From assembly GCF_001042655.1 (NCBI RefSeq), contig NZ_AP012332.1:186001-250000 (forward strand): a stretch of DNA of 64,000 nt. The letters are read 5' to 3'. Origin of the DNA: Gardnerella vaginalis ATCC 14018 = JCM 11026 (GTDB taxonomy: Bacteria > Actinomycetota > Actinomycetes > Actinomycetales > Bifidobacteriaceae). Below the pieces are notes generated by a model. That model was given only the letters and a program-made list of their open reading frames with translations. It was not told the origin of the DNA and did no database searches. The position numbers and the translations under genes are program-made. Positions 56,760-60,109 of the stretch are shown piece by piece (the stretch's first letter is position 1; each line of letters begins with the position of its first letter).

Positions 56760-58193
56760 ATGACAGTTTCGTTGATTTTGGCTTCTCAATCGCCATCGCG
56801 TAGAGCAGTGCTGGCTGCTGCAGGCGTGATTCCTGTGATTCATGTGAGCGAGGTGGATGAGCCAGCGGCGTTGCGTAATGCTGCAAATGCGCAAGGTGTT
56901 AGCGTGGAGCAGATGAGCGCCGAGGAGCGCGTTTCGATTTTGGCGCAAGCAAAGGCTCAAGCTGTGTACAATGCGTGGAAACTGGTGGCAGATACGGCGG
57001 CGAGCGCTAGTGGCGATTTAGTTGTGGGGTATCCGCTGGAGGCTGAGGCTGAGTCTGCAGAATCTGAATCTTCTGAAACTGCTAGTAGCGCTTTAGCAAG
57101 TGATTCGCAATCGCATATAACGCATAACGTAGATACTGCACAGACTCGCGATTTTTCGGGCGTAAAAGTTCCTACTAAGACTTTTGATATTCACGATTTT
57201 GCGTACGTGAATAAGTCTTCCGCTGATTCCAATAGTGTGCTTATTGTTGGCTGCGACTCCATGTTTTTGCTAGACGGCGAATGCTACGGCAAGTCGCATA
57301 CTCCTGAAGTGGCATTTGAGCGGATTAAGCGAATGAGCGGAAAAACTGGAGAATTGTTTACTGGCCATTGCTTAATCGACACGAAAAGTGGCAAAACAGT
57401 GTGCAAAGTGAGCCGCGCAAGCGTGACTTTTGCGCATATGAGCGATGAGGAGATCCGCGCATACGTAGAAACTGGCGAGCCATTGGAAGTTGCAGGATCC
57501 TTTACGCTAGAAGGCTTTGGCGGGGCATTTATTGAGGGAATTCAGGGCGATCCGCATGGAGTTCTTGGGATTAGCTTGCCGCTACTAAGGCAGATGGTTT
57601 GCGATTTTGGGTACGCTTGGCCAGATTTGTGGAATAGTCGCAAGTTAGAGGGAGAGGCGATTAAGGACGATCCTGCTTCCGCGCAAGTGCCTAAAGAAAA
57701 CGTGCACCAGCCTGGAGACGGATGGGTTATGTGCGATTGCGGGCGCAAGCATTGGGGCCATAATGGCGCGGCTGGCGTGTTGCTCGCTAGGCGAGATGAG
57801 ACCACTGGGCGCGTGACTCATGTTGTTATGCAACATCGCGCGCTTTGGAGCGCGGAAGGTGGAACGTGGGGGATTCCTGGTGGCGCAATATCTGATGGCG
57901 AAACTGCGATTGAGGGTGCGTTGCGCGAGTCGTTTGAAGAAGCTAACATAACGTCTCAAGACATTGATGTTGTTGGAGCGTATTGCGAAAATCACGGGAA
58001 TTGGCGTTATACAACGGTTTTTGCGTTTGAAAAGCCGGGGCATAGTGTGAATCCGTGCGCGCACGACGACGAGAGTATGGAAATCAAGTGGGTGCCGATT
58101 GATGATGTTCCGAAGCTAAAGCTGCTTACGGCAATGCGTACGGATTGGCCGTCTTTCCGCGCTCGCCTTGATTCTCTTGCCTCGATTCGTTAG
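56760..58193 (+). CDS. Maf-like nucleotide pyrophosphatase fused to a Nudix hydrolase
   Basis: A 477-residue two-domain protein; ATG at 56760 behind AAGGAAGAGTAAGG. Residues 1 to about 290 are Maf-like: LASQSPSRRAVLAAAGV, IVGCDSMFLLDGECYGKSHTPEVAFERIKRMSG (Maf core Asp), SFTLEGFGGAFIEGIQGDPHGVLG. A Ser/Ala/Glu-rich insertion (about 80-125) splits the Maf domain. Residues about 330-477 are a Nudix domain with the box beginning GGAISDGETAIEGALRES and ending FEEANI (about 374-396, fits GX5EX7REUXEEXGU with Asn at the last Gly position). Both halves act on nucleotides, so the fusion is probably a house-cleaning enzyme. Two genes upstream are hom and thrB. Confidence 0.9.
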   Translation: MTVSLILASQSPSRRAVLAAAGVIPVIHVSEVDEPAALRNAANAQGVSVEQMSAEERVSILAQAKAQAVYNAWKLVADTAASASGDLVVGYPLEAEAESAESESSETASSALASDSQSHITHNVDTAQTRDFSGVKVPTKTFDIHDFAYVNKSSADSNSVLIVGCDSMFLLDGECYGKSHTPEVAFERIKRMSGKTGELFTGHCLIDTKSGKTVCKVSRASVTFAHMSDEEIRAYVETGEPLEVAGSFTLEGFGGAFIEGIQGDPHGVLGISLPLLRQMVCDFGYAWPDLWNSRKLEGEAIKDDPASAQVPKENVHQPGDGWVMCDCGRKHWGHNGAAGVLLARRDETTGRVTHVVMQHRALWSAEGGTWGIPGGAISDGETAIEGALRESFEEANITSQDIDVVGAYCENHGNWRYTTVFAFEKPGHSVNPCAHDDESMEIKWVPIDDVPKLKLLTAMRTDWPSFRARLDSLASIR

Positions 58194-58195
58194 CT

Positions 58196-58260
58196 GCGCG
58201 AAGGCAGTTCTCGCGCCCGTGTTTGTAGTCAGATTTGCTTAAAAGGGAACAAATGCGGGA
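58196..58260 (+). repeat. Direct repeat, left copy, of the surface-protein cassette
   Basis: The 65 bases starting just after the Maf-Nudix stop (GCGCGAAGGCAGTTCTCGCG ... AACAAATGCGGGA) recur at 60572-60637 with about 58 identical positions. The core TGTTTGTAGTCAGATTTGC is exact. Confidence 0.8.
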
Positions 58261-58590
58261 ATTTAGTTGTGTGTGATTTTTTGTAGCGTGGCATTTCGTT
58301 TGACGTTGGTGTGACGTTGGTGTGGCGCTGGTGTGGTGTTGGTTTGTGTCGGCGTGTTGCGTGTGTGGTGTGTGTGGAATGTTGATTTTTCAATGGTTTT
58401 ATAGTGTTAGTGTTCTTGCTCGAGTAGTTTCCTGAGAAAAGTCTGGGAAAATTCTTTAAAAACCTTGAAATAATGTGTTTTTACGGTTTTATTAGTGTTA
58501 ATCCGCAAATATTATGGTGAAAATAGTTTTTATTGTGGATTAGTTTGTGTGTAACATTATTTTTTTCTGTTTGTTTTATGTGGGTGCCTC

Positions 58591-58626
58591 TTGACTTTTT
58601 TAAACGGGGGGGGGGTATGTTAATAA
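58591..58626 (+). promoter_or_regulatory. Promoter with a 10-G tract between -35 and -10
   Basis: The -35 TTGACT (58591-58596) and a -10 candidate TATGTT (58616-58621) are separated by 19 bases, of which ten are an uninterrupted G run (58606-58615). An alternative -10 TAATAA (58621-58626) would be 24 bases away. Tract-length changes would move the spacer toward or away from 17. The leader then runs about 115 bases to the start codon at 58742. The rest of the gap 58261-58590 is G/T-rich with GTTGGTGTGGCGC-like repeats. Confidence 0.65.
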
Positions 58627-58741
58627 AAGCTGCTAGCTAGATGCTCTAGATGGTGGTTATCCACAATGTTTTGAATATTGTTGGATGTTTAAGATTTTTC
58701 TTCGTGTACCTGCACGGAGGAGAAGAAGAAAGGAAATTAAA

Positions 58742-60109
58742 ATGATGAATAAGAAGGCTATCGCTGCTTTCGCTGCTGGCGCTACTTTGCTTGCCGGCTT
58801 CGCAATGGCAACCCCAGCAATGGCTGCAAAAGTTCCTGCTACTGATACTGAGCGTACTCAGTTAGCTCAAGAGGCAGAACAGCGTGGACTTGGTTTTGTA
58901 GCAAATAGTATTCGCACCTCTAAAACAAGCTCTTACCAAGAGCTTAAAGCCATGTTGCAAAAAGCTGAGGATGAACAAGACGCTGCAGAATCTCACCGTC
59001 TTCTTGATTATCCAAACGGTACATTGAATAATTCTTCTGCTGAGGGCGTTGCTGCTGAAGCTCGTAAGCGTGGTATTGCGAATCCTACGGTAGATGAGTT
59101 CCAGCCTGATTTGCTTGCTCAGTATGCTGGTACTCGTGCTGAGAAGCTTGGTAAGGCATACAATGATTTGCTTGATGGCAAGATTACTGAGGCTCAGTAT
59201 CAGGCTGTGAAGAAGGCTGTGTTTGGTAGCAGCGAGTACACTGAGGATTCATTGGATTCAAAGCAGGACGACAAGCAGGCTCCTAAGAAGGATGACAAGA
59301 AGGACGATACTACCACTCCTGATCAGAAGATCAAGGATCTTGGTAAGTTGAACTTGTCTGATGCTGCTAAGAAGAAGCTTGCTGTTCATTACGTGTATAA
59401 GGCTAAGCTTGCTTTGGATGAGGCTGATAATAATCTTGCTGAGAAGAAGGCTGATTATGCTGCTAAGAGGAAGACTCTTGTTGAGACTATGACTGAGCTT
59501 GCTGCTCGTAAGGCTGCTGCTGAGAAGGCTAACCAGGATTTGACTGATTTCTTGGCTTCTGGTGAGAATAATTCTGCTAAGGAAACTGCTCTTCGTGATG
59601 CTTTGAACCGTGCTCATGCTCATGAGCAGCGTGCGTTTGATGCTGAGCAGAAGGCTGAAGCTGAGTTTAATGCTGCTCGTGATGCTGCTTTCGCTGCTGT
59701 TGCTGCTTATAACAAGGCTTTGGCTGAGTATAAGGATGCTTATAACGATGCAGTTCGTTTGGGTGTGAATCCTGCTGCTCTTCCTCCTGTTGTGACTTCT
59801 GATCCTTTGGCTGCTGATTTCCCAGCTGTTCCTGGTACGAAGCAGATTTATGCTGATGCTTTGAATGGTAAGTTTGGTCCTGCTGCTCAGGCTTCTGCTA
59901 AGAAGACTGAGGCTGCTAAGGCTCAGGCTACTGCTCCAGCCGCTGCTGGTAAGGCTGCTGCTAAGGGTGAGCTTGCTGCTAAGGGTGCTAAGGGTCATGG
60001 TAAGGCTGGCGAGAAGCTTGGTAATGCTGGTGTTGGTGTTGCTTTGACTGCTTTGGCTGCTTCTATGCTTGCTGGTATGGGTGCTGCTGTTCGCAAGATG
60101 CGTCACTAA
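58742..60109 (+). CDS. Helical, Ala/Lys-rich secreted surface protein, variant C-terminal anchor
   Basis: A 455-residue protein from the ATG at 58742 (AAAGGAAATTAAA upstream; in-frame TTG/ATG at 58685 makes an Arg-rich leader and is unlikely). Signal peptide of about 28 residues (MMNKKAIAAFAAGATLLAGF to AMA). Residues about 180-195 are Asp/Lys-rich; about 200-330 is a long charged helix likely to form a coiled coil (EADNNLAEKKADYAAKRK...). Pro/Ala/Lys-rich end, then LGNAG, a hydrophobic helix and RKMRH, a degenerate sortase-like tail. Codons are highly biased (GCT, AAG, CTT), suggesting strong expression. Not recognised as a named family; function unknown. Its promoter has the poly-G tract. 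Confidence 0.85.
   Translation: MMNKKAIAAFAAGATLLAGFAMATPAMAAKVPATDTERTQLAQEAEQRGLGFVANSIRTSKTSSYQELKAMLQKAEDEQDAAESHRLLDYPNGTLNNSSAEGVAAEARKRGIANPTVDEFQPDLLAQYAGTRAEKLGKAYNDLLDGKITEAQYQAVKKAVFGSSEYTEDSLDSKQDDKQAPKKDDKKDDTTTPDQKIKDLGKLNLSDAAKKKLAVHYVYKAKLALDEADNNLAEKKADYAAKRKTLVETMTELAARKAAAEKANQDLTDFLASGENNSAKETALRDALNRAHAHEQRAFDAEQKAEAEFNAARDAAFAAVAAYNKALAEYKDAYNDAVRLGVNPAALPPVVTSDPLAADFPAVPGTKQIYADALNGKFGPAAQASAKKTEAAKAQATAPAAAGKAAAKGELAAKGAKGHGKAGEKLGNAGVGVALTALAASMLAGMGAAVRKMRH

Follow-up and report, generated by a model that had tools for sequence, protein, structure and literature searches.

The window analysed here, 64,000 bases of DNA at positions 186001-250000 of the single contig (1,667,406 bases) that makes up the genome of Gardnerella vaginalis ATCC 14018 = JCM 11026, holds a run of ten G (G10) in the promoter of a surface-protein gene, and this tract is a candidate for a phase-variable switch. 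The gene (58742..60109, + strand, as are all features of the locus) encodes a 455-residue member of a paralogous family. Direct reading of the sequence gives the order TTGACT, TTTTTAAAC, GGGGGGGGGG, TATGTT at 58591-58621: the -35 box TTGACT (58591..58596) agrees with TTGACA in five of six positions and is followed by a fixed spacer part of 9 nt, TTTTTAAAC (58597..58605), by the G10 tract as the proposed slippage site (58606..58615) and by the -10 box TATGTT (58616..58621), which abuts the tract. The spacer is thus 9 + 10 = 19 nt long and a homopolymer of at least 8 lies between the two boxes, as these can be assigned by sequence; both the coordinates and the spacer length of the initial annotation are confirmed. 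The downstream promoter edge and 5' leader (58622..58741) include the ribosome site AAGGAAA at 58730-58736, and the start ATGATGAATAAG (ATG at 58742) follows TATGTT after 120 nt and the end of G10 after 126 nt. No Rfam family was found in the leader at gathering score, and a known RNA element was discarded as a candidate: all Rfam matches, microRNA models among them, lay below the gathering score. A weak scan of the + strand at 58190-58760, limited to spacers of 16-18 nt, detected no second consensus promoter and, because of that limit, misses the TTGACT/TATGTT pair as well.

A repeated promoter cassette and its tract-free siblings

The promoter is not confined to this gene. A search of 112 genomes of the genus, in which at least 6 G sufficed and two mismatches were allowed anywhere in the pattern, returned 37 matches in 12 genomes, and after L098, which is tract-free, had been left out, 36 cassettes of the form TTGACTTTTKYRAAC-Gn-TATSTT remained, with one to six copies per cassette-bearing genome. 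TTGACT is unchanged in all 36 and the fixed spacer part has 9 nt throughout, a length set by the search pattern, while n is 9 (11 cassettes), 10 (23) or 11 (two), and the spacers are therefore 18, 19 or 20 nt long. Base conservation was calculated over 35 cassettes, after exclusion of a locus in which bases next to the tract are unread. The mean frequency of the commonest base was 94% in the 15-nt core, which is partly fixed by the search, and 96% in the first 9 bases 3' of the tract, which are not, as compared to 66% in the 50 nt upstream and 59% in bases 10-50 downstream: the -35 box, the tract and the -10 box persist while the flanks diverge. In the window genome, five of the six family genes have this promoter, with tracts of G9, G10, G10, G11 and G10. 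Moreover, tract length differs between cassettes in identical surroundings, as L043 of the window genome (G10) and L070 of genome G009 (G9) show no change in 115 flanking nt, and the same is true within G009 for L067 and L069 (both G10) against L070.

When contigs of one genome per species (about 85,000 species, a set to which the window genome possibly does not belong) were scanned with the core pattern, 25 stretches were obtained, 20 of them in records named Gardnerella, four in Bifidobacteriaceae NR021/NR047 and one in Litoreibacter. The Litoreibacter contig and two viral contigs had G6 with no TATGTT directly after it and were taken as chance matches; one of the viral sites looks promoter-like.

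An 18-nt ribosome-site pattern, with two mismatches allowed, matched in all 12 cassette-bearing genomes. Nine species each contributed one copy without a tract, and all nine copies have boxes TTGATT/TTGAGT and TATCTT/TAAGTT and a spacer of exactly 17 nt, where gaps of 14-22 nt were allowed and the box patterns were chosen after the sequences had been inspected; L175, a distant copy in G014 without a start, was left out of these measurements. Homologous upstream DNA is common to eight of the nine (blastn of L063 against seven others), and a first synteny test on the tract-free copies gave nothing. The leaders of eight tract-free genes (L063, L065, L162, L169, L171, L172, L173 and L174) share a conserved CCCTAGTT...GCGGGAAACCGC element, for which a search at three loci gave no Rfam match at gathering score.

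Poly-G tracts elsewhere in the genome and the genus

The tract had been described in the initial annotation as exceptional for a genome of this composition. Under a first-order Markov model fitted on the window, 0.007 G/C runs of at least 10 are expected in 64 kb, and the description stands with respect to chance and to the window. It does not extend to the genome, where 24 G/C runs of at least 9 were observed as compared to 0.97 expected, with lengths of 9-15, and where runs of exactly 8 are absent. The excess of 24 over about one implies that G10 did not arise by chance, yet is one among many, and the idea of a unique feature was dropped on account of these tracts.

Ten of the 24 lie upstream of genes outside the family. 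A hexamer starting with TTG is found 6-11 nt before the tract in seven of them (p 0.00015) and TA directly after it in eight (0 of 20,000 random placements); TTG occurs at one of the nine other tracts. A Pfam search of seven of the ten genes recognised FIVAR, aRib/GA, RibLong, Listeria-Bacteroides-repeat and pilin domains, the searched set also including L058, whose tract lies within a gene. In the 12 Gardnerella-type genomes, the pattern TTGA-N8-19-G9-TA had 65 matches as compared to three for the reversed pattern; 35 belong to cassettes and 30 do not, 18 of the latter having spacers of 17-20 nt, and among the 65 is at least one intragenic site (L058). The other 100 genomes of the genus gave 18 matches, e.g., TTGACAAA...G9-10-TA, and three reversed ones, and the spacer was 17-20 nt in 11 and 18-19 nt in 10 of these 18. 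Poly-G tracts in promoter spacers may therefore occur across bifidobacteria.

Phase variation and the alternatives to it

Comparison thus lends support to the candidate switch of the initial annotation, through 36 cassettes that vary in n, siblings at 17 nt and tracts at the corresponding position before unrelated large surface-protein genes; the position of the tract, its conservation, the length differences between near-identical cassettes and the spacing of the tract-free siblings are direct observations. We consider it probable (about 0.8) that phase variation of the porA/fetA type acts on transcription here, with G10 as the part that varies. In the mechanism that we propose, RNA polymerase would recognise TTGACT and TATGTT, and slipped-strand mispairing at replication would add or remove G within a clone and so change the distance between the boxes. 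This would alter promoter strength, such that transcription would be set by tract length. As one cassette type would drive several paralogous proteins with signal peptides and a presumed surface location, each from a tract of its own, the set of family members expressed in a population would be mixed and would keep changing. Four of the 12 cassette-bearing genomes were searched for mismatch repair proteins, and MutS was found in none and NucS in all four. The NucS protein of M. smegmatis leaves indels of 1-2 bp unrepaired (PMC11551767); if this blindness extends to Gardnerella, slippage products would persist.

Several observations weigh against a switch. The promoter boxes are assignments made from sequence, and tract length was compared between paralogs and sister species, each species being represented by one assembly, in which the length of a homopolymer may be erroneous. 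In G022, three divergent members of the family depart from the spacing described above, with spacers of 18 nt (an interrupted G stretch), 18 nt (G6 and looser boxes) and 16 nt (looser boxes), and these exceptions slightly lower our confidence in switching. Among the ten non-family upstream tracts, only four have both boxes at 4/6 or better (p 0.0005), spacers span 17-25 nt, and two of the better ones, L040 and L056, have long spacers of 21 and 25 nt; TA also follows four of the nine other tracts and is therefore not specific. Finally, G8, which corresponds to a 17-nt spacer, is found in none of the 36 alleles, and the confinement of the tract to 9-11 G would also fit a fixed weak promoter.

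The absence of G8 bears on the earlier suggestion that loss of two G would produce the optimal spacer. G8 would indeed give 17 nt, the length seen in the siblings and the optimum for B. breve promoters, whose spacers seldom exceed 20 nt (PMC5746004), and a spacer of 17 nt as the ON state would agree with the tract-free siblings; the suggestion is nevertheless unproven, given that G8 is missing from all 36 assembled alleles. These alleles would be mostly attenuated, unless poly-G DNA moves the optimum; in the porA example presented in a review, 12 G is the high state (PMC4235727).

The best-surviving alternative, which we nevertheless regard as unlikely, is that the tract serves as a fixed structural spacer, its poly-G geometry belonging to a weak or regulated promoter and being selected at 9-11 G without any switching. 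This is in line with the narrow length range in all 36 cassettes as compared to 9-15 over the 24 genome tracts. However, length differs between cassettes with identical flanks, the tract-free siblings manage at 17 nt without any tract, and 9 and 10 G were reported among sibling colonies at another Gardnerella tract (Garcia et al., 2024; PMC11287997). We consider it improbable that changes in tract length shift a regulator site relative to the promoter, as in meningococcal nadA, which works by repressor spacing (PMC2791445), or that an alternative -10 box such as TTAATA just downstream is used. Upstream sequence is kept in close relatives, which speaks for such a reading, but its conservation over the 35 cassettes reaches only the 66% given above, with the -35 and -10 boxes kept, and the weak scan at spacers of 16-18 nt offered no other + strand consensus promoter. 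Least probable of all are sequencing or assembly errors over a conserved G-rich spacer, since, despite one assembly per genome, mostly in several contigs, and error-prone G/C homopolymers (PMC4235727; PMC11287997), lengths of 9, 10, 10, 11 and 10 occur within one single-contig genome and variation at another Gardnerella tract was confirmed as real by Sanger sequencing (PMC11287997).

Phase variation by way of the promoter spacer has precedents. In Neisseria porA, fetA and opc, a homopolymer likewise lies between the -10 and -35 boxes, with a proposed effect of its length on sigma-factor binding (PMC2791445); unlike these single genes of a Gram-negative organism, the promoter described here recurs as a cassette family in an actinobacterium, where it has tract-free siblings with 17-nt spacers. 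Within the genus, Garcia et al. (2024) described homopolymer tracts of at least 8 as abundant, with about 70% of the G/C tracts upstream of open reading frames and often of surface-protein genes, and the window tract is of the kind they count, a run of at least 8 within 300 bp upstream of an open reading frame. They also reported Sanger-confirmed variation between 9 and 10 at one tract and noted differences between colonies of a single strain for which no switch is known (PMC11287997). The main text of that paper contains neither the word spacer nor the word paralog, and promoter is found solely in the title of a reference; no mention of promoter spacers or of the cassette was seen there. We found no prior description of promoter-spacer tracts in Gardnerella in a search that covered little of the subscription literature. 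Slipped-strand mispairing has also been linked to the Gardnerella sialidase NanH3 (Kurukulasuriya et al., 2021, as cited in PMC11868660), where, judged by the title of the paper and unlike in the cassette, it takes place in the gene encoding the enzyme. The promoter type is known, and the abundance of variable tracts in Gardnerella is on record (PMC11287997), whereas the multi-copy setting is new.

The Vlp lipoproteins of Mycoplasma hyorhinis form a multigene surface family in which the promoter spacer of every gene contains a homopolymer. With poly-A in place of poly-G, lipoproteins as products and a host from another phylum, the likeness to the Gardnerella family is functional only. Gardnerella is associated with bacterial vaginosis. 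Switching can be put to the test with a defined multi-copy promoter, for which a tract-free sibling often provides a natural control. If the switch operates, this family's surface antigens would not be stable markers, and a reference genome would conceal true differences within a strain.

The surface-protein family and other tracts

The 455-residue protein consists of a signal-peptide region (residues 1-28; 58742..58825), which is 78-100% identical in 34 aligned relatives, an exchangeable N-terminal module (about residues 29-204; 58826..59353) and a conserved C-terminal half (residues 205-455; 59354..60106). No Pfam family over the cut-off and no NCBIfam family was found for it, so that identification by a known domain was abandoned, and no solved relative was detected by sequence profile. 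Rib, GA or FIVAR domains over the Pfam cut-off are absent from this protein and present in other tract-bearing genes of the genome. At its C-terminus, no LPXTG-like motif was found and the protein has LGNAG in its place, followed by a hydrophobic stretch and RKMRH; inspection by eye showed that other family members end in, e.g., LPTTG, LPGTG, LAKTG or LSKTG. The gene had been called strongly codon-optimised, and its effective codon number of 33.2 (34.1 from an upstream in-frame ATG) is indeed the lowest of the 35 open reading frames of at least 200 residues in the window (median 46.8), a bias that points to high output in the ON state.

Relatives of the protein were present in five of the 59 genomes searched. 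Some relatives stem from metagenome assemblies; for P0004, P0006, P0007 and P0008 the longest contig exceeds 1 Mb. P0003-P0008 and P0010 share 92-100% identity with the window protein over residues 206-370 and just 6-20% over residues 29-140. Among the best 120 of 510 matches, 20 proteins, the window protein included, have the common C-terminal half, 19 of which fall into four types of N-terminal module and one of which is too short. The module of P0006 and P0010 is that of L062, a paralog in the window genome (93% and 85%, respectively), and the G009 copy, which adjoins the same downstream transporter gene, has a different one. This variation over a conserved C-terminal half, together with the L062 module in P0006 and P0010, indicates that N-terminal modules are exchanged between family members, as an apparent second layer of variation, presumably through gene conversion or through recombination where the signal-peptide DNA is nearly identical. 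A wider picture, in which poly-G promoter spacers are general in bifidobacteria and were recruited independently, and in which Gardnerella combines switchable cassettes, a sibling locked at 17 nt (nine of 12 genomes) and module exchange into two-layer antigenic variation, is put forward tentatively.

The gene upstream of the promoter (56760-58193) seems by eye to encode what we take to be a Maf-like N-terminal part fused to a Nudix-like C-terminal part.

Among the other tracts of the genome, the G11 of L058 (1305825) falls within an aRib-domain gene, in its signal-peptide region. In the window genome, the primers used for the published Sanger test match on either side of this tract, with a product of 545 nt as compared to the 546 nt stated; the gene at the Sanger-tested tract is named there as GAVG_0299, with a GA module (PMC11287997). 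At L054 (1148512), a G10 lies inside a terminator-like hairpin, CAGCCTA-G10-TCCTCT-CTAGGCTG-T6, and termination at this site could depend on tract length; L050 (820889; G11) has the downstream hairpin arm in common with L054 and not the upstream arm. Along the genome, 11 of the 12 tracts that lie below 0.83 Mb have their G on the + strand, and all 12 that lie beyond 1.03 Mb have theirs on the - strand, a split that resembles one replication arm each.
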